From: Branchiostoma floridae
Lineage: Eukaryota; Chordata; Leptocardii; Amphioxiformes; Branchiostomatidae
Assembly: GCF_000003815.2 (NCBI RefSeq)
Contig: NC_049981.1
Span: 25,109,875 to 25,173,874 of the forward strand
DNA length: 64,000 nucleotides
Direction: 5' to 3'
The position numbers and the translations under genes are program-made. The notes under the pieces were generated by a model that saw nothing but the letters and a program-made list of their open reading frames with translations, was not told the origin of the DNA and made no database searches. The stretch's first letter is position 1, and the number at the start of each line of letters is the position of its first letter. Positions 5,594 through 56,200 of the stretch are shown piece after piece.

Positions 5594-5689
5594 TGGTGTT
5601 TACGTTGGACATGCTTCCGATAGCTGAACAGGCTCTAAACTGTGTGTTTACGTTGGACATGCTTCCGATAGCTGAACAGGCTCTAAACT
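5594..5689 (+). repeat. 48-bp tandem duplication beside the foldback element
   Basis: Two identical-looking 48-bp copies lie head to tail. Each starts GTGTTTACGTTGGACATGC and ends GGCTCTAAACTGT. The second copy ends about 3 bp before the left terminus of the large inverted-repeat element. No copy is visible at the right end, so it is not a target duplication in the usual sense. Confidence 0.85.
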
Positions 5690-6099
5690 GTTGTACGTAG
5701 CCGTATTGACTTCTTACGGTAGATCTCAAAGAAAACGGTATAGTAAAGCCGCGATGCGTTATATCAGCCTAAAAAATGGTTCCCCGTTCTTGGAAGGGGT
5801 TGATAAATCACGAGGAACTACTTTTGAAAGCTAGACCGCAGTTAGAAGTCATGTAATTACGCCTGAAAGTTGACCAATTTTCAGGGTTTCAGTGGTGCGT
5901 TTCGCTATTGTTTTCGGGACGAGTTACGCACTGCATGGGGTTTTCCGATATACCGGGTTATAGGACAAGGATCAACTGCTTCCGGGTCAACCATACTAAT
6001 AGTGTATTGTTGTTGCACATATGATCACCTAAGTCGGTGATATGGCAGTAAATTTAACACATTTAATGGATTACTGTACTCTTGAGGTTGTTTTTACAT

Positions 6100-8770
6100 A
6101 CCAGACTACAATGTAGAGGCTTTTCGTTACGAGGGAGGTTTATACGGAATACGGATAGACCTGAGTGCCAATTACTGCAGGTGTCGGTAAAAAAAAGTGA
6201 CAGCCTGTGCCAATGTCGAAGCTTTCCCGGCTATCAAGGCAAGTTTATACGGATGGAACAGAGACTTTCTACAATAAAGATTAGTACAGTTCTTGTCCTG
6301 TCGAGATTTTACGTTACTAAGGGAGGTGTATTCAGATACAAATGTGCCATACTACCGTGAGTTGTGTCCAAAAAAATTGACACAGTTGTGCCAATGCCGA
6401 CGATTTCCAATCTTAAGAGAGCTTTGTACGGATGAAACAGAGACTTTCTACATGTGTATCTTACAGAATGACACTGTCCTTGTCCTATTAAGATTTTACG
6501 TTATAAAGAGAGTTTTCTTTCGGATGAACAGTGCCATACTCAAGTGTGTCAAAACAAATTGACACAGTTGCGCCAATGCCGACGATTTCCAATCTTAAGA
6601 GAGGTTTGTACGGATGAAACAGAGACTTTCTACATGTGTATCATATAGAATGACACTGTTCTTGTAATGTTGAGGTTTTACGTTATTACAGAAATTTTAT
6701 TTGGATAGAACAGTGCCATACTACAGGTGTGTCAAAACAATTTGACACAGTTGCGCCAATGCCGAAGATTTCCGCTCTTAAGACAGGTTTGTACGGATAA
6801 AACAGAGACCTTCTACATGTTTATTAAATAGAATGACACTGTTCTTGTCCTGTTGAGATTTTACGTTATTAATGGAGGTTTATGCGGATAGCACAGTGCC
6901 AAACTACAGGTGTGTCGAAAAAATTGACACAGTTGCGCCAATGCTGAAGATTTGCGTTCTTAGAGGAGGTTGTTACGGATGAAACAGAGACCTTCTACAT
7001 GTGTAACATATAGAATGAAACTGTTCTTGTCCTGTCGGGATTTTACGTTTTTGAGGGAGGTTTATTCAAATAGAACAGTGCCATATATAGGTGTATCAAA
7101 TAATTGACACAGTTGTGCGAATGCAAAACATTTGCGTTCTGAAAGGAGGTTTATACGGATGAAACTTTCTACATGTGTATCATAAAGAATGACACTGTTC
7201 TTGCCCTATTAAGATTTTACGTTATAAAGGGAGTTTTATTCGGACAGAACAGTGTCATACTCAAGTGTGTCAAATCAAATTGACACAGTTGCGCCAATGC
7301 CGACGATTTGCAATCTAAAGAGAGCATTGTACGGATGAAACAGAGAATTTCTACATGTGTATCATATAGAATGACACTGTTCTTGTCCTGTTGAGATTTT
7401 ACGTTATTACGGGAGTTTTATTTGGATAGAACAGTGCCATACTACAGGTGTGTCAAAGCAATTTGACACAGTTGCGCCAATGCCGAAGATTTCCGCTCTT
7501 AAGACAGGTTTGTACGGATGAAACAGAGACCTTCTACATGTGTATCATATAGAATGACACTGTTCTTGTCCTGTTGAGATTTTACGTTATTACAGGAGTT
7601 TTATTCGGATAGAACGGTGCCATACTACAGGTGTGTCAAAACAAATTGACACAGTTGCGCCAATGCCGACGATTTCCTAACTTAAGAGAGCTTTGTACGG
7701 ATGAAACAGAGAACTTCTACATGTGTATCTTACAGAATGACACTTCTTGTTCTATTAGGATTTTACCGTTATAAAGGGAGGTTTATTCGGATAGAACAGT
7801 GCCATACTACAGGTGTGTCAAAGCAAATTGACACAGTTGCGCCAATGCCGACGATTTCCAATCTTAAGACAGCTTTGTAGGGATGAAACAGAGACCTTCT
7901 ACATGTGTATCATATAGAATGACACTGTTCTTGTCCTGTTGAGGTTTTACGTTATTACGGGAGTTTTATTTGGATAGAACAGTGCCATACAACAGGTGTG
8001 TCAAAAAAATTGACACAGTTGCGCCAATGCCGTAGATTTCCGTTCTTAAGAGAGCTTTGTACTGATTAAACAGAGACTTTCTACATGTGTATCATATAGA
8101 ATGACACTGTTTTTGTCCTGTTGATATTTTACGTTATTGAGGGAGGTTTATTCGGATATAAATGCCATACTACAGGTGTGTCAAAAAAATTGACACAGTT
8201 GCGCCATTGCTGAAGATTTGCGTTATTAAAGGAGGTTGTTACGGCTGAAACAGACACTTTCTACATGTGTACAGTGTAGAATGACACTGTTGTTGTCCTG
8301 TTGAGATTTCACGTTATTAAGGGAGGTTTATGCGGATAAAACAATGCCAAACTACATATGTGTCAAAAAAATTGACACAGTTGTGCCAATGCCAGAGATT
8401 TCCGTTCTTGTGGGAGGTTTATACGGATGGAACAGAGACTTTCTACATGTTGTATCATATAGAATGAAAATGTTCTTGTCCTGTTGAGATTTTACGTGAT
8501 TAAGGGAGGTTTATGCGGATAGAATAGTGCCATACTACATGTGTGTCAAAAAATTGACACAGTTGCGCCAATGCCGAAGATGTCCGTTCTTAAGACAGGT
8601 TTGTACGGATGAAGCCGAGACTACTCACATGTGTATCATATAGTATTACACTGTTTTTTTCCTGTCGAGATTTTACGTTATTGAGGGAGGTTTATGCGGA
8701 TAGAACAGTGCCATACTACAGGTGTGTCAAAACAAATTGACACAGTTGCGAGGTTGATACGGATTAAAAA
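6100..8770 (+). repeat. Left array of ~181-bp tandem units
   Basis: Repeated landmarks recur about every 181 bp: GATAGAACAGTGCCATACTA, then TGTGTCAA...TTGACACAG, then TTGCGCCAATGCCGA, then GATGAAACAGAGACTTTCTA, then TTGTCCTGTTGAGATTTTACG. Units are diverged by point changes and 1-4 bp indels, as expected for an array that has not been fully homogenised. Short open frames inside it are chance readings of the repeat. Confidence 0.9.
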
Positions 8771-8779
8771 GAGACTTTT

Positions 8780-10440
8780 TACATCCGAATAAAACACCCT
8801 TAATAACGTAAAATTTCAACAGGACAAGAACAGTGTAATTCTATATGATACACATGTAGAAAGTCTCTGTTTCATCCGTAACAACCTTCCCTAAGAACGG
8901 AAATCTCTGGCATTGGCACAACTGTGTCAATTTTTGACACACAACTGTGGTATGGCACTGTTCTATCCGCATAAATCTCCCCCCGTAACGTAAAATCCCG
9001 ACAGGACAAGAACAGTGTCTTTCCTTATGATACACATGTAGAAAGTCTCTGTTCTATCCGTTAAACATTCCCTAATAGCGATTGATACACCTGTAGTATG
9101 ACACTGTTCTTTCCGAATGAACCTCCGTAACAAAATAAAATCTCAAAAGGACAAGAACAGTGTCATTCTACATGATACACATGAAGGAAGTTTCTGTTTC
9201 ATCCGTATAAACCTCCAATAAAAACGGAATACTCTGGCATTGGCACAACTGTGTCAATTTTTTGACGCACCTGTAGTTTGGCACCGTTCTATCCGCATAA
9301 ACCTCCCTTGATAACGTAAAATCTCAATAGGACAAGAACAGTGTCATTCCATATCATACACATGAAGAAAGTTTCTGTTTCATCCGTAACAACCTCCTTT
9401 AAGAACGCAAATCTTCAGCATTGGCGCAACTGTGTCAATTTGTTTTGACACACCTGTAGTATGGCATTATATCCGAATAAAGCGCCCTCAATAACGTAAA
9501 ATCCCGACAGGACAAGAACAGTGTCATTCCATACGATACACATGTAGAAAATTTCTGTTCCATGGGAATAAACCTCACATAACAACGGAAATCTCTGACA
9601 ATGGCACAACTGTGTCAATTTTTTGACACACCTGTAGTATGGCACCGTTCTATCCGAATAAAAGCTCCCTTTATAACTTAAAATCTTAACAGGACAAGAA
9701 CAGTGTCATTCTATATGATAGACATGTAGAAAGTTTCTGTTTCATCCATATCAACCTCCCATAAAAACGGAAATCTCTGGCATTTGCACAACTGTGTCAA
9801 TTTTTTTGACACACCTGTAGTTTGGCACCGTTCTATCCACATTAACCTCCCTTAATAACGTAAAATCTCAACAGGACAAGAACAGTGTAAGTCTATATGA
9901 TACACATGTAGAAAGTGTCTGTTTCATCCGTAACAACCTTCTCTAAGAACGGAAATCTTTGGCATTGGCACAACTGTGTCAATTTTTTGACACACCTCTA
10001 GTATGGCACTGTTCTATCCGCATAAACCTCCCTTAATAACGTAAAATCTCAACAGGACAAGAACAGTGTCATTCTATATGATACACATGAAGAAAATTTC
10101 TGTTTGATCCGTAACAACCTTCCGGAGTTGCGCCAATGCTGAAGATTTGCGTTCTTAAAGTTTAAGAACGCAAATGTTCAGCATTGGTGCAACTGTGTCA
10201 ATTTATTTTGACACACCTGTAGTATGGCATTTATATCCGCGTAAACCTCCCTCAATAACGTAAAATCTCGACAGGACAAGAACTGTGCTAATCTTTATTG
10301 TAGAAAGTCTCTGTTCCATCCGTATAAACTTGCCTTGATAGCCGGGAAAGCTTCGACATTGGCACAGGCTGTCACTTTTTTTACAAACCTGTAGTATGGC
10401 ACCGGTCTATCCGTATTCCGTATAAACCTCCCCCATAACG
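8780..10440 (-). repeat. Right array of ~181-bp units, inverted
   Basis: The same landmarks appear as reverse complements (AGTATGGCACTGTTCTATCC, CTGTGTCAATTTTTTGACAC, CGTAAAATCTCAACAGGAC). One unit near 9080 is truncated and lacks the palindrome. The units near 10130-10190 contain a local inversion that makes a hairpin. Confidence 0.9.
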
Positions 10441-10855
10441 AAAAGCCTCTACATTGTAGTATGGTATGTAAAAACAACCTCAAGAGTACAGTAATCCATT
10501 AAATGTGTTAAAGTTACTGCCAGGTGATAGTGCAACAACACTACACTATAAGTATTGTTGACCCGGAAGCAGTTGATCCTTATCCTATAACCCGGTATAT
10601 CGGAAAACCCCATGCAGTGCGTAACTCGTCCCGAAAACAATAGCGAAACGCACCACTGAAACCCTGAAAATTGGTCAACTTTCAGGCGTAATTACATGAC
10701 TTCTAACTGTGGTCTAGCTTTCAAAAATAGTTTCTCGTGACTTATCAACCCCTTCCAAGAACGGGGAACCATTTTTAGGCTGATATAACGCATCGCGGCT
10801 TTACTATACCGTTTTCTTTGAGATCTACCGTAAGAAGTCAATACGGCTACGTACA

Positions 10856-11759: not shown

Positions 11760-13931
11760 ATGGCGGTTCAGCAAGTGTTCTGCACCATTATTTTTGTGGT
11801 GACGATCCTGAGTAATGCGTCTGCTCAAGACTCAACGCCTTCTCCAAGGTAAAGATGTCTAGTTATTTGTCTATTTCCCTACAAGCTCAAGGGAGAATGG
11901 ACAAACATGACGAAATGGATCTATTTGGGCCCAAGTAATGAATTGTTGCCTTTATCTGTCTCGACATACCCAATGATTGCAAAACAAACGCGCAGGGCCA
12001 AGAAATTGCCTTTATCTGTCTCGACATACCCAATGATTGCAAAACAAACGCGCAGGGCCAAGAAATTGCCTTTATCCGTCTCGACATACCCAATGATTGC
12101 AAAACAAACGCGCAGGGCCAAGAAATTTATCTACGGATATGACGACTACTGACTGGGTGACATCTAACGGTATAGCTATTGTCGAGGCCTACTATGACAC
12201 TGCATATCTTCACGTTTCTATCGATAAACTCATGCTAACTTCCTTACCATTGCCTCTCCGTCAAGAAGATGGTAGGCAAAGGCTTTGGATTGAACAAGAG
12301 ATCATGAAGTTGTAGTTATCGGAACAGAGCACGTTCGATTAGAAGCGAACTTTGACAGTGACAGTAAACATCATCATCATCATCTGNNNNNNNNNNNNNN
12401 NNNNNNNNNNNNNNNNNNNNNNNNNNNNNNNNNNNNNNNNNNNNNNNNNNNNNNNNNNNNNNNNNNNNNNNNNNNNNNNNNNNNNNACCCAAATTTGGGT
12501 AATGAGCCTGTTTAACGTGGTCGAGGCCATACTCGGCACGGGACCCCCATTTTACTCTTTTACGTCCCTCCCGGTAGACGATTTCGTGGAAAGCTTCGTG
12601 AGGCTACAGCAATCCGGACGTCCTTGGTTGGTCTCCCATCCAAGAACTGTCCGGACCGCGCGTTGTTTAACATCCGAGATCGAGGGATCGGGTGTACCAA
12701 CACATATTTCACCACAAAGAAGAAATACTGTCTACCGTAGTAATGGAAGGTATCTTGGTAGCTAGGGCCGTTCGTCTTTCCTAAAAATATAGACAACGAA
12801 TGACTTTTCCACCTGACATGCATACAAAAAGTGCTGCGCAACAAAACTTGGCAAGTATCCTTAATGGCGATAGCGGTGACAGATAGATGGTCACGTGTCC
12901 GAATTATTTATACACGTGTGTTACCAGGCTAATCCGTTGTCACGAAGAAGTGAGGTTTCAGACTCCTTGCATTGATATAAGTAATAAGCTACCATAGACT
13001 TAAAATCGAATTCAATGGCACGAAAGGGTACTCATATGCCTAGACATTAAAAAATTATCGTCTCGTTTCAATCAATTGCTTTTTTTTCTCAAATAACTCT
13101 TACCGTCATTGTTTTTCTTTCATTGCAACTGTATCAAGTATATTGATATTGGGAATGAATCAAGGCTTAATAGGATGAAACACTACAGCGCACGGATGAG
13201 CATTTCAAAACTTGGTATGCGACTACCTGTATGCACCGAGTTACGCGAGTATCAACATTCTTACATTTGATGTTTTCCTAAATTAATTCTATTTTTCTTC
13301 ATTTATTTATTTTAGGAGACAGCCGAAGTGGTGTCCCGTGGAGGTTCAGGAGGTAAAACCGTACAGAGTGCGGTCAGGTTCCCGGACAGAGTGTCGCAGG
13401 GCCTGCACGTGGAACAGGTTCTGCTGCGAGTAAGTCCAAAGTTCGAGATCATATGATTCTGAAAAAAACACATGCATATGGTCACTTCCTTACAGTTGTA
13501 TCAACTTGTACTCGACACATTCACTGAGGGGAGCTGTAACGTTAGATAGTCGCAGCATATGTCAATCTTGATCATATCCGGCCAAATATTTCCGGTTTTG
13601 TCACCAAAAATGTTGCATTGGGTGCCTTCAACAAAACATAGCACATCCATTTTTTTTCTAATTACAAAGAAGTTTTAAAAGATTAGCGATCCACACGTCT
13701 TGCGTGAGAAAAATCATCTTCGCATATCTTCAGTTGTGTTCTTTCTGCTAACTGACGGAATATGGAGTTGCCAAGGAATCCATCTTGCTCTTAATCAATA
13801 GTTAATTTAGTTTCATGCTACCAATCGCCCTCACAGGTTCAACATCATCCCTGTCTATACCACTGCATATCGCCAGGTGTCGCGACAGGAGTGGAAATGC
13901 TGTGACGACACAGTGCCCTGCCCAGATAAAA
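11760..13931 (+). CDS. Secreted EMI-domain protein, 5' exons (partial)
   Basis: Three exons splice in frame: 11760-11848, 13316-13429 and 13837-13931, each with GT/AG borders. Exon 1 starts MAVQQVFCTIIFVVTILSNASA, a clear signal peptide with likely cleavage after ASA. Exons 2 and 3 encode a Cys-rich module running from PKWCPVEVQEVKPYRV through CTWNRFCC to YRQVSRQEWKCC. The spacing and the YRxVxxxEWxCC ending match the EMI domain of emilins, multimerins and related extracellular-matrix proteins, a protein-protein interaction module. The usual CCPGW ending reads CCDDTVPCP here. After exon 3 there is either a weak donor (A|GTAGGA) or a read-through stop about 23 codons later. A 100-N gap and a transposon follow, so the 3' end is uncertain. 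Exon structure is seen; the family is from motif recognition. Confidence 0.65.
11946..12125 (+). repeat. 60-bp tandem repeat, three copies
   Basis: Three perfectly phased 60-bp units (11946-12005, 12006-12065, 12066-12125) start TTGCCTTTATCTGTCTCGAC. Only one base differs, in copy 3. It lies in intron 1 of the EMI gene. Because 60 is a multiple of three, it creates open frames on both strands, which I take as artefacts. Confidence 0.95.
12387..12486. other. Assembly gap (100 N)
   Basis: A run of exactly 100 N, a conventional placeholder length. The left edge is a short CAT repeat, which may have stopped the assembly. The gap lies inside intron 1 of the EMI gene. Confidence 0.99.
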
Positions 13932-20640: not shown

Positions 20641-20775
20641 AGCGTCTTGCCACACTTGGAGTACCAGCTTGTGGTGCTAGGGGTCTCTTCTGTGTTGACT
20701 TGTATCCTAGCTGAGAAAGTTACAATTTTACATCAGCTCAGCAAGTTGTAAGGGTCCTTGTAAAGGGTTTCTTAT

Positions 20776-21255
20776 GGTCTCATTGATGAGTTTCCGCTTC
20801 CCATAGACTTCTATGTTATAATTCGTGTTTTACATGGTCGCGTTTATAATGAAGCTACATGAAATGTCAGCAGATTTTTCATTCTATGTTGAGCAAATTT
20901 ACTCTATATAATAGAAAAAAATTGCCAATGACTAGAATCCATAGGTTTGTTGTTTATAGCAATTACAAGCTACAATCAGTCAATCCCAGCAAAAGGCACT
21001 TTTTCCTTGCTAGCGTACAGCCGCACCACTCAGAACCCAGGACTGTGTACCTCCGACCTAGCGCGCGGCTGTCAAACTTTGCCTGCTGATTTCTTCAGTT
21101 ACAAGCAAGCTTTCACCAATCTAACTTTTGATATCAGTTTGGCTGGCCAAAAGCGAACTTCTCACCGCTAAAAACAGGCGTCCATGCAGCCGTTCAGTTT
21201 TTGGCTCGGATCTATTTTAGGGTACCCACTCGCGGAGTAATACATCAATGAGACC
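20776..21255. mobile_element. 480-bp MITE, copy 1
   Basis: The ends are GGTCTCATTGATGAGTTTC and its inverse ...CATCAATGAGACC, with TTA next to both ends (TTAT on the left, TTAA on the right). The interior (for example CCCATAGACTTCTATGT, GCACCACTCAGAACCCA, GGGTACCCACTCGCGGAGTA) matches 55654-56132 at nearly every position. There is no coding capacity. TTA flanks would fit a Harbinger-type 3-bp TWA duplication, but the superfamily is not proven. Confidence 0.85.
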
Positions 21256-21499
21256 TTAAGACAAAAGTATTTTGAAGTACCAGCTCGTGATGCTAGGGGT
21301 CTCTTCTGTGTTGACTTGTATCCTAGCTGAGAAAGTTACAATTTTACATCAGCTCAGCAAGTTGTAATGGGTCTTGTAAAGCATTTGTTATGACCAAATT
21401 ATTTCTTTGTTTAGACACTGCATGTATCAAATTGCTGCACATGACATGTGAGATGGCAAGTGAGATGGGTTTTAATTTCATGGTAGCAGGAAAAAGGGC

Positions 21500-44467: not shown

Positions 44468-44927
44468 GTAAGCATCCGGCATCTTTTCGTACAGCAAATA
44501 GCTTTTAACTACTCTACTGATGGTGACAGAGTTATACAATTACGTGAGAGGTTTTTGATCTGTTTGGCCGTGATGCTTAATTGCTGTGTGTTGCTAAATT
44601 TGAACTAAAAGAACAACCTACATTCCAAAAATACTCATGTCAAGTAAGGCATTGCTACAATACCAAACGGTTGCAATATACATATATAGATGTACTACAG
44701 TATTTTTGTGTGTTTCTATTTGCATGTGATGCAGAGTGAGTACTGAAAATTCTTTGTTTCAACAAGTCTGTGAAGTGCAATAATCACACGGACTACTCCT
44801 TTCCGCCTGTTGAGCAGCTGGTGGACTATTTCCTTATTTGTTCTCTTGTCCACCCATATTCTGACGCAGTATTTTCTCTTTATTCCTCTCTCTGCAGACG
44901 ACTTTTTGTTCCCCGTACCAACCAAAG

Positions 44928-45695
44928 ATGTCGGACGGCGCCCTGTCCCCTCTTCCCCGCCAGGCAGACGACATGGAGACCCACCCGGGGTCGCCCTACT
45001 CCTACTGCTCGACTGACTACCACTCGCTCAGCCCGCCGACGCTGTCCCCCTCCCCTAGCCTAGCGGAGGTCCGGTACACCGACTGCCTCCCGTCCACTCC
45101 CGAGTACCACCCCGAGGATGTTATGGACACCGACTCGGAGGAGAAGAAAGCAGGGCGGCAGCCGAGGGTGGCCCCCACACGCAAGACCGAAAACAACAAA
45201 GCCGAGAAGACGACGGCGGGCACCAAGCGCAAACGGTCCCACAAGTCGCGACAGAAACCTAAGAACCAGGAAGCGGTTGTACAGGTGAAGAAACAGCGTC
45301 GTCGCAAGGCCAACGATCGGGAGAGAAACCGCATGCACAACCTGAACGGCGCGCTAGACCAGCTCCGAGAGGTCCTACCGACGTTTCCCGACGACACGAA
45401 ACTGACAAAGATCGAGACGCTCCGCTTCGCGCACAACTACATCTGGGCCCTGTCCGAAATGTTGAAGGTAGCGGACGCCGGTGGAGACCCCACGGTACCA
45501 ATGCAGGCCATGCCGGGCCTCTTCGGGCCGGGCGGCGGTCTCGAGAACATGAACATTGGCTGGGCGGGTGGGCCGTCCTGGACGCCCGAAGGACAATGGA
45601 TCTCAGCCCCGCTCAGTGACCCCAGTACGACCCCGAACGGCTCATTGTGTTCTGAACTCTCCGAAACCGACTCTTACACGTACCCGTCACCATAA
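44928..45695 (+). CDS. Ngn: Neurogenin, proneural bHLH transcription factor
   Basis: This single uninterrupted coding exon of 255 aa encodes a nuclear, E-box-binding activator of the atonal/neurogenin class. Such proteins dimerise with E proteins to commit cells to a neural fate. The bHLH domain is at about residues 124-178. Its basic region [17 protein letters not shown] carries the DNA-contacting Glu in NDRERNRMH, and helix 2 reads [21 protein letters not shown]. The [19 protein letters not shown] and [11 protein letters not shown] signatures are those of neurogenins rather than NeuroD or atonal. A Lys/Arg-rich stretch (about 97-126) is a likely nuclear signal; the N-terminus is Ser/Pro-rich and the C-terminus Gly/Pro-rich and probably disordered. 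The ATG lies in a good context (CAAAGATGTC) 30 bp after the acceptor. Length and layout are normal for the family, with no damage. Amphioxus is known to have a single Neurogenin, expressed in neural plate. Confidence 0.95.
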
Positions 45696-49065: not shown

Positions 49066-52000
49066 CTGCAGTGTGGTCATTCAAGTACAAGGTTGGACGG
49101 GTCAGCGGACATCCATACACAAGAAACGCGCATTAGTCGCTGGTCGACCGGTCACTGGTCATCAAGTCGTGGCGGAAGAGAAGGGGCTAATCTGAGCTTT
49201 CAATGTCCCAAAAAAATGAATATTCCCGACTTTATTTCGGAGTGGTACAAGAAAATTAACTACGTTATGTGCAAAAATCGTCGACGTCAGATGTTGCAGA
49301 TCATCATAGAAAAATCGTCGACGTCAGATGTTGCAGATCATCATAGAAAAAAGTTTGATCAGTATAAGAAAATCATGGGAGGATTATTTGACATACCAAT
49401 TGTGGAAATAAAGTTTATACTGGTTAGATGTCACTAGACCATTCTAATGCCATGCAAAACAACGACGTTTAACTGCATCTAGAATTTCGAAAACGAATTT
49501 CTTGCCATCTTGGTAAATTTTTTGTTTGCTTTTAGATCCAAGCCATTGTTTCCATTTCGTTACAAGCAAGGCGTTCCTTGAAAATCAGAATTGTTAGTTT
49601 GCAACATTCGACAACAATGCCAAACAGAACATGCCTTTCCTTCGTCCCTTTAAGTAACCACCAAAGCAATTATAGATCTTCGAGTTTCGTCACCACTCAG
49701 ACACGTTCTATTCCCCCAACCACACCAACTATATGGAGTTTCCACGCGGGTCAATTTGGGGGCATTTGGCGGATAGGTGTCAGGTCATTGAGGTTGTTTG
49801 GGGGGCAGGGTACAGCTAATGTTCCGTTGTTGGGGGTGTGGAGGGGGAGGTCATTCGCAAGTACTTGAGGAGGCAATCCAAGCAATAGCTCATTAAGGTC
49901 TAGCAATGCGGGGATTTTCTTGATTAGTTTATTGGGGGCAATAAATCCATTTGATGTGAACTGGTGACCCGAGCTTCACATCGTTTTTCTGCTTGCATAA
50001 TCAGTTCGGAGGCAGTTACTTTGTAGCATGTTGCACTTCTCTCGGGAAGTCTTTGTTGGGATATCGTGTTATTTTTCGTCATTTCAAACGATATTTGGCC
50101 GAACTAAAATATGCAGATTCCGGGATAACAAGTTGTTGCTGTCTTCAGTCCAACACAAAGGACATAAAGGATATCTTTACGGTCTGCTAAAATGAAATGT
50201 TTAGAATAAACGATATCAAAACCGATCATTCCTAACCGCCTTGATGGAATGTTTAGTGTTTCTTCCACGTAGACACTGTTTTTGAAAGTTTGTGAGGCGT
50301 CTCTGGAATGATTGATCGTGTTTCTGAAGTTTGTGCTAAAACCCTTGTCCGCTTTGTTTGTGTATGTACAATCCGGCGGCGCCCGTCCGTTATTTCAAGG
50401 GTCAGTGGCCGGCCCCCCAGCGCGTGCCTGGGCGAGACAACGACCCACCATAAAACCTACACCCTACTTACCTCCTATCACTGATGACACCCGGAATCAC
50501 AATGGGAAAATGGCGAGTTTCAGAGCTTCAAACTCATCTCCATAGTGACCAATGATAATTCCTGCCTCTCAGAACCGATATATTGATGTCCTCAGGGAGT
50601 TAGACCGTTTCTTATGCAGCGTTGTTTCATCTCCAAACCTAGCGATGCGCGAAGAAAGCACACAACAGTCGCGCGACAGATCCAGAGGTACACGACCTGT
50701 GTGTTTTAACGTCAGTGAGTTTGTTTACTCAGCAGTTGACGCCAGGACGTCTGCACACAACTGTTTAAGCGACGTGCGTCCAGGAAGTTTGTTTTTCGAT
50801 TGGTAAATATGCCTTGGGTAAAGATGAAATAAAAAAATCTCAACCGAAAAGGAACGGTCACTAGCGATTTGAAATTATGAGTAAATCCGAACCGCCCAAA
50901 CGCGTAAAAAAATCCTGGTTTTACCATACGTGAATACAGTATCAAATATTTCCTTTATTACCTACATGTCATGAAACCAAGGAGATCTTAGAATTGTTCT
51001 AAAATCGTCCTTGCCTTCATCATTGAGGTTAAGATGATTTTTAACCTCCCTGCCTCACCAAACCTTCCTCAGGGGTTTATGAATGGTAGACAACAGGAGA
51101 GTGAGTCCGCCGGGTGAGAGGTACTAGGTGAGGATAGCATTTCCAAATGAAACCCAATGGTGACCAGACTCCCCTGGCAAAATATTCTCCCCATCTAGCT
51201 TGATTGTACTATTTTACTATCAGCCACGGTAGTATCTATAATCCGTGCACATTTTTTCGGGCGCTACAAAAATCCCTATTCCTCGGGGACACTTCTTTGA
51301 GCCTGTGATAATTTCCGCCCTACTTACGACGACAAAAACAGGACAACAATAGAGGAAACCCGCCTTTTCATTCCCCCAGCAGGCCTTACTTATTATATTC
51401 AAATTCCACCGACAGTTTCTCTTGTAGAATTCAGCGCAAAACAGGCAATTTTCGCCCAAGGGATGGGGCCGATGAATAGTCGACGATGTCGTTGTTCCCC
51501 CTCCCCCCCGTGTTTTCAATGTTTGAAAAAAGTAGTGATTTTCCCAGAAATAGCCTTAGAAAACGAAACGTACTTAGAATATAAGGCAATATTTTGCCTA
51601 TCGCTTTTACTTTTACGAAGAGTTACAATAAAATATATACATACCTATAATTCAGAATATGCATGCTAACCGAGTTCAATAACAAACCCTTCCCTCTGTC
51701 AAACTATCACGAAAATCATTAGAACAGATCGCTATTCAAACAATGAATCAGAAAAGATTTGGTTATGACATTGCTCTTGTAGCGCGCGAGCACAGCCCCG
51801 TGTCCGTATTTACTTTTTACAGCCGACGAATCTACAAGTACACTTGAGCTATATTAGTCAGCAAATGCTAAGATTACAAGCTATTAGCAGTGTAATTAAA
51901 TGTAGCAAACAGTAAAGGCTCAAACTAAGCCGTGCAAATACATTTTCATTTATGCAAGTTCTTCTATGACGACTTCAACTTTTATACAAAATGTAAATAT

Positions 52001-55456: not shown

Positions 55457-56200
55457 ATGTTCGCCTCTATTTTGTTCGACTTATTAACGGCTGGATGGAT
55501 TGGTTTCATGTATGGCGTGTTGGTAGGTTTTGGCAGAAGCTGGAAATGGTTAGATTTGGGGGCCCCTACTGCGGCTACTTTCCAAGGTATTGCAGCGGAA
55601 CTTCCTGTTTCGATATGTCGTGATCTGGACATTTCATGGTCACCATGTTTTATGGTCTCATTGATGAGTTTCTTTTTCCCATAGACTTCTATGTATTAAT
55701 TCGTGGTTTAAATGGGCGCGTTCATAATGAAGCTACGTGAAATTTCAGCAGATTTTTCATTCTATGTCGAGCACAGTCACCCTATATCGTGGGAAAAAAT
55801 TGCCAATGTAAACTATACGTAGGAACTTTTTTTATAGCAATTACAAACTACGATTAGTCAATCCCCACAAAAGGCACTTTTTCGCTGCTATTGTACAACC
55901 GCACCACTCAGAACCCACGACTGTGTACCTCCGACCTAGCGCGCGGCTGCAAAACTTTACCTGCTAATTTCTTCAGTTACAAATAAGCTTTCACCAATCT
56001 AACTTTTGAGATCATTTCCACTGGCTACAAGGGAATTTCTCACCGCTAAAAACATGCGTCCGTGCAGCCGTTCATTTTTGGCTCGGATCTCTTTTAGGGT
56101 ACCCACTCGCGGAGTAATACCTCAATGAGACCTTATATTTGGTGGTAGATAGCTCTTGTGCTCGGAAAGAAGTAACGTAAGTTCTGGACACCTAGCTAGT
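55457..56200 (+). pseudogene. MFS-transporter-like fragment interrupted by a MITE
   Basis: The frame from 55457 reads a hydrophobic segment with GWIGFMYGVLVGF, then WLDLGAPTAATFQGIAAELP. This resembles the MFSD6-like branch of the major facilitator superfamily, where a Gly-rich helix and a GIxAELP motif follow each other. Soon after, the 480-bp MITE interrupts the frame (55654-56132). Sequence after it (GTGCTCGGAAAGAAGTAACG) again resembles the related fragment at 58390-58670. No start, no further exons and no intact membrane domain are visible, so it is a broken fragment. The family call is by eye. Confidence 0.45.
55654..56132. mobile_element. 480-bp MITE, copy 2
   Basis: GGTCTCATTGATGAGTTTC at the left and CTCAATGAGACC at the right, with TTAT immediately outside both ends. 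It is nearly identical to 20776-21255 across its length, in the same orientation. Confidence 0.88.

Follow-up and report, generated by a model that had tools for sequence, protein, structure and literature searches.

The window analyzed here, a 64,000-nucleotide stretch of the Branchiostoma floridae genome, contains at positions 5692 to 10855 a foldback element, in which mirrored ends enclose two arrays of a single ~181-bp unit that face in opposite directions. This arrangement, proposed in the initial annotation, was confirmed by a self-BLAST of the window, which paired 5692-6416 with 10855-10162 as inverted copies (91.2% identity over 725 columns, gaps counted) and returned, between the ends, numerous matches within the arrays, both direct and inverted, spaced at multiples of ~181 bp. 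Over the first ~450 bp, the two ends are 97.0% identical when gaps are ignored. The element opens with the left outer terminal inverted repeat (5692..6111, plus strand), which starts TGTACGTAGCC and is not unit-like; its inner boundary at 6111 was borrowed from the near-identical end of another copy, L009, whose first unit match starts at element base 421. A unit-like stretch within the left terminal repeat (6112..6273, plus strand; BLAST match 6190-6273, start set by comparison with L009) leads into the left array of ~181-bp units (6289..8750, plus strand), followed by an apex (8751..8782) where unit orientation flips and which is too small for a gene. Beyond it lie the right array in opposed orientation (8783..10298, minus strand), a unit-like stretch on the inner side of the right terminal repeat (10299..10413, minus strand; the match extends to 10453), and the right outer terminal inverted repeat (10414..10855, minus strand), which finishes in CTACGTACA. 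With its long inverted arms and internal tandem repeats, the element has the anatomy of the foldback class. Elsewhere in the window, an open frame at 44865-45695 encodes a bHLH (HLH) domain, which we take to resemble neurogenin; a dispersed direct repeat links 20772-21258 to 55650-56135 (self-BLAST, 488 columns, 87% identical); and TRF reported near-perfect tandem arrays at 11946-12127 (60 bp, 3 copies) and 49273-49351 (37 bp, 2.1 copies).

TRF described the left arm as 13.5 copies of a 182-bp period (6289-8750) and the right arm as 5.7 copies of a 181-bp period (9082-10120), with 2.8 copies of a 91-bp period at 8802-9060; the consensus ~181-bp unit consists of two related ~91-bp halves. A hidden Markov model (HMM) of the unit matched the window copy 16 times on the plus strand and 10 times on the minus strand, with 14 and 8 full-length matches, respectively (150 or more model positions), so that the original estimate of about 15 left and about 9 right units was fair. 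The outermost HMM match on each side is the unit-like stretch within the terminal repeat. The outer end shares no more sequence with the unit than shuffled sequences do. The view that the element lacks coding capacity also holds: the window copy carries no recognizable gene of its own, and four reading frames of at least 150 amino acids (stop to stop) occur in the window, none of them inside the element.

To place the element in its genome, we searched 513.4 Mb on 431 contigs and found related ends at about 35 loci. After we merged loci across four end searches, there were at least 36, or at least 35 if both ends of L027 are counted as one; these counts are lower bounds, since the search scores only the best candidates. 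The window end gave at least 105 matches (unit-like pieces included), the end of a second subgroup at least 42, and a 192-bp end at least 40. A terminal pattern allowing up to 1 mismatch hit 62 places, versus 5 for the reversed control, and its exact form hit 38, two of them apparently unrelated. Four merged loci (C7:19945901, C9:4325105, C9:4533274, and C13:14181916) were included on a 25-base match only. The ends are found on 13 of the large contigs C1 to C19 plus four small contigs, and this dispersal of copies that have ends in common but differ in arm length, typical of the foldback class, supports the mobile foldback family that the initial annotation had put forward.

The ends fall into at least four types. 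Type A (TGTACGTAGCCGTATTG) is that of the window copy, type B reads TGTACTCAGCC or TGTACTAAGCC, type C is found in C8 (about 78% identical to A; its first 25 bases recur in C157), and type D is found in L027 (about 87% to A). Out of 26 aligned ends, 25 start with TGTAC, the exception being the right end of C8 (TCTCA); the tip deviates in L040 and C145. Within the window subfamily, left ends are 99.3 to 100% identical to one another and right ends 98.9 to 100%, versus 96.6 to 97.7% between left and right. Given that left ends are closer to left ends (99%) than to right ends (97%), the lopsided element moves as a whole. Copies of subgroup B have a centre spacer in common (C5, L021, L022, L023, L035, L041, and part of L033), which is about 1 kb where complete and 93 to 99% identical among the rows listed; these centres also contain a ~20-bp minisatellite. 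Separately, seven places (C4:31138076, C5:5290576, C3:22594476, and others) carry another end-like sequence, TGTACATAGCCTAAGTGAAGACTTA, and an eighth carries a one-base variant of it. No mirrored partner lies near any of them among the terminal-pattern places listed, and they may represent either a relative that encodes the missing transposase or something unrelated.

We then asked whether the copies are flanked by target site duplications. Eleven places have two ends; L012 was dropped as a two-ended copy because its flanks mirror each other and one end adjoins a gap, but was retained in the controls, leaving 10 usable copies. Five of these have exact 4-bp duplications: L009 (AGCG), L010 (GTGT), L013 (TGCC), C5 (GCGG), and L029 (GTGT). 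In C8 the duplication is 5 bp long (AGGGC) and the right end is altered; in L011 and L017 three of the four letters agree; and the window copy (CTGT on its left, TGGT on its right) and L023 have none. The initial statement that there is no target duplication is thus correct for the window copy and wrong for the family. At the background 4-mer match rate (165/34,485), five in 10 would have a probability of 6e-10. A comparison of left and right 4-mers from different elements, which is the stricter control because the targets are biased, gave matches in 4 of 110 pairs, a rate at which five in 10 still has a probability of about 1e-5. Among the two-ended copies without N (the window copy, L009, L011, and L023), an exact duplication is present only in L009, and the other four exact cases (L010, L013, C5, and L029) span assembly gaps. 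The two GTGT duplications are weaker evidence than the rest, since GTGT recurs as a target. The end-adjacent 4-mers have a GC content of 69%, versus 42% in the background, and GTGT or ACAC adjoins 5 of the 22 sites (P = 3e-6), one of the five being L023, whose right side is unmatched. These 22 sites are the clean ends, without L012, L022 (a duplicate of L021), the second L027 end, and unclean places, and two-ended copies contributed their left 4-mer.

The left edge of the window copy has a peculiarity of its own, in that an exact two-copy tandem duplication of 48 bp (5596..5691) lies outside the element and ends exactly at its border. At L023, the one further copy that lacks any target-duplication match, the left edge carries a 13-bp tandem duplication with one mismatch, and no edge duplication was seen in the other 34 flank stretches examined. 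For repeats of 6 to 60 bp, the random rate in the window is 0.006. The 48-bp duplication is possibly a scar of aberrant insertion or repair.

The flanks bear on whether a transposase was needed at all, since the family could also have spread by segmental duplication or by ectopic recombination between dispersed arrays. L021 and L022, about 36 kb apart, share flanks, as do the two L027 ends, suggesting that some copies were duplicated together with their surroundings, and the two copies without target duplications would fit such a history as well. Most other flanks, however, differ between copies while the TGTAC boundary is exact in 25 of the 26 aligned ends, and half of the usable two-ended copies carry exact duplications, which makes this route improbable as the general explanation compared with transposition.

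The arms record how the copies differ. We clustered 142 full-length units at 95% identity, leaving out C8 and units containing N, and obtained 49 clusters, 30 of which are present in more than one element. Numbered by cluster, the left arm reads 0-13 in the window copy; 0-9, 9, 10-13 in L013; 0-3, 26 (perhaps a fusion), 6, 8-12 in L011; and 0-3 in L009. The right arm reads 14-21 in the window copy; 14, 15, 16, 18, 19, 20, 22-25, 21 in L009; and 19, 20, 19, 23-25, 21 in L011. A best-match mapping of the units agrees with these strings: the 14 left units of the window copy and the 15 of L013 follow the same order at identities of 0.98 to 1.0, with one unit doubled in L013. On the right, seven of the eight window units recur in order in L009 (0.98 to 1.0), and four consecutive L009 units are absent from the window copy. 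About 1.9 kb of the window copy, with the apex, has no counterpart in L009, where the left and right arms are joined at a shared ACACA. Given that shared units keep one order across copies, the unequal arms look like deletion and duplication derivatives of a longer parent, and descent of the compared copies from one such parent is the simplest reading of their unit sequences. The right arms of the window copy and L013 have no matched unit (best identity, 0.73 to 0.93), suggesting that the two copies either kept different blocks or differ more deeply; this mismatch is compatible with deletion but is no proof of it. In the window copy, mean unit identity is 0.82 within the left arm, 0.81 within the right, and 0.80 between arms. 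The arms of this copy are thus not homogenized, and left ends group with left ends, so that in subgroup A each copy inherits the asymmetry of its predecessor. Subgroup B differs: the four outermost units of one arm mirror those of the other in L017 (0.97 to 0.99) and C5 (0.95 to 0.99), and only partly in L023.

A mainly satellite origin, in which an array captured terminal repeats or the element is a source of free arrays, would agree with the variable unit number, including the doubled unit of L013, and has a precedent in Tetris of Drosophila virilis, which, in the available part of its description, gave rise to satellite arrays (PMC4079207). We consider it very unlikely here. Among the matches listed out of 242, no free array was found, although assembly gaps could hide long ones, and the sole listed cluster without visible ends, L041 (C3:13492218-13493847), adjoins the subgroup B centre spacer. 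The listed unit matches thus all fall in family loci, with no sign of a free satellite, and the suggestion in the initial annotation that the element could seed satellites finds no support. Finally, the refuting case named in the initial annotation, a single-locus segmental inversion or an assembly artifact of a satellite array, is scarcely credible: even though mirrored arrays are hard to assemble, as seen from the N gaps in the arms of many copies and from the L012 flanks, which mirror each other for 568 bp up to the sixth mismatch (a sign of misassembly), the window copy contains zero N, and the same ends and unit order recur at other loci in unrelated flanks, several with 4-bp duplications.

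A transposon family of this kind would need a transposase, and we recognized none in or beside the copies examined, several of which are gapped, among the part of the frames that was scanned. Genome-wide, where the best candidates were scored, the nearest of 135 integrase-core matches lies 45.3 kb from any of 52 family places (the L041 array included), and the nearest of 27 MULE matches lies about 274 kb from a family place; assembly gaps, especially those in C8, L014 to L016, and L027, may hide a gene. Several copies with long centres or short end matches were considered as sources and rejected. In C5 (19.6 kb), the frames of at least 130 amino acids (L018 and L019) comprise reverse transcriptase (RVT_1 was matched by one of them), repeats, and a frame that looks GIY-YIG-like by eye; C8 (11.3 kb, 7.9 kb of it N) has no frame of 130 amino acids; L029 holds pieces of acid phosphatase and reverse transcriptase; and frames of L031, L033 to L035, and L038 to L040, viewed by eye, showed no transposase. 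Ten frames compared with Pfam gave only UMPH-1 (in a frame that also matched HAD and Tag1_C weakly) and leucine-rich-repeat domains. The longest frame of the L023 centre, which is common to several subgroup B copies, had no Pfam match, and its relative in L035, as judged by eye, is shorter and has a different end.

Three observations were made along the way. L029 (C14:12983851-12989892) is a 6-kb two-ended copy with GTGT duplications that encloses a His_Phos_2 (histidine acid phosphatase) coding piece alongside its reverse transcriptase pieces, with gaps just inside both ends, reflecting either gene capture or a scaffolding error. One MULE match (C19:2136178) lies 29 kb from a related-looking tip (C19:2165406). 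Lastly, 11 of the 135 integrase-core matches lie in open frames of exactly 417 amino acids (e.g., C15:3691545 and C9:16357640), a length below that of the long frames in which most other such matches lie, as if they belonged to a repeated single-gene integrase-type transposon.

Taken together, the window element probably belongs to a family of non-autonomous foldback DNA transposons present in low copy number. A transposase encoded elsewhere would bind the TGTAC... ends, and perhaps also the repeated units, by analogy with a report for Galileo; it would excise the element and reinsert it with a 4-bp stagger at GC-rich or GTGT/ACAC targets. The arrays could shrink and grow by slippage, by unequal exchange, and by deletions joined at microhomology across the hairpin apex, leaving unequal arms. 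The absence of matching duplications at the window copy, whether they were lost or were never there, may reflect exchange between copies or a local rearrangement, the latter also leaving the 48-bp duplication beside the left edge. Counting against this reading are the two copies without target duplications and the gaps spanned by most of the exact cases, and the unmatched right arms of the window copy and L013 reduce our confidence in it slightly.

The foldback anatomy itself is known from fruit flies; among the foldbacks compared, the duplication length and the ends are what is unusual. Within the partial literature covered, foldbacks with internal tandem repeats all come from Drosophila. Given these similar elements, the window element adds a new example to a known kind. 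Its individually recognizable, ordered units offer a readable record of arms becoming unequal, and with them two points become testable: whether the repeated units serve as binding sites for the transposase, and by what means so lopsided an element still transposes intact. We found no paper joining foldback, amphioxus, and transposable element, and no description of the family in the literature searched; Repbase entries lay outside the comparison, and an existing entry is possible. According to the text available, Repbase classes non-autonomous elements by duplication length and first 11 bases (PMC4455052).

Elements with TGT...ACA ends and 4-bp duplications offer one comparison. Sola2, Academ, and Chapaev also make 4-bp duplications. 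IS481EU comprises 4-bp TGT...ACA elements of parabasalids, as far as its description was available (PMC10045372). Ginger1 and Ginger2, integrase-type DNA transposons reported from B. floridae among others, have in the accessible text TGTNR ends of ~40 to 270 bp, with Ginger1 duplicating CCGG or CCGT and Ginger2 preferring RTATAY (PMC2836005). The window family resembles them in its TGT...ACA ends and 4-bp duplications, GC-rich as in Ginger1, but differs in starting with TGTAC rather than TGTNR (TCTCA at the one remaining end). Moreover, none of its six duplications (AGCG, GTGT, TGCC, GCGG, GTGT, and AGGGC) fits the Ginger targets thus described, neither CCGG/CCGT nor, with end-adjacent 4-mers of 69% GC, RTATAY; one unpaired end, L035, adjoins CCGG. 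We give a small but real chance to a bolder reading, namely that the family is a DNA transposon lineage of its own outside the superfamilies compared, with TGTAC...GTACA ends, 4-bp GC-rich or GTGT targets, ordered 181-bp units as transposase binding platforms, and an undescribed transposase.

The closest parallels in design are the Drosophila foldbacks, here taken from the available portions of their reports. Tetris has ~220-bp tandem units within each arm, 8- to 10-bp target duplications, and unit arrays also outside the element, and was placed in Mutator/MULE by its authors, who found no transposase (PMC4079207). The window family is like Tetris in its foldback anatomy, its tandem units, its rearranged copies, and the lack of a recognized transposase, but it makes 4-bp rather than 8- to 10-bp duplications, which does not fit Mutator/MULE, and shows no free array among the matches listed. 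Galileo, of the P superfamily, has ends that are long and full of internal repeats; the two arms vary independently of each other, and the repeats hold extra binding sites for a known transposase. Galileo uses 7-bp target sites, and its chimeric copies, attributed to exchange between copies, lack matching target duplications (PMC3573991, PMC3688188). The window family shares this design and similar arm dynamics, but no transposase was found for it, and its 4-bp duplications depart from the 7 bp of the P superfamily. Duplication length thus separates the family from the 7- to 10-bp foldbacks with which it was compared.
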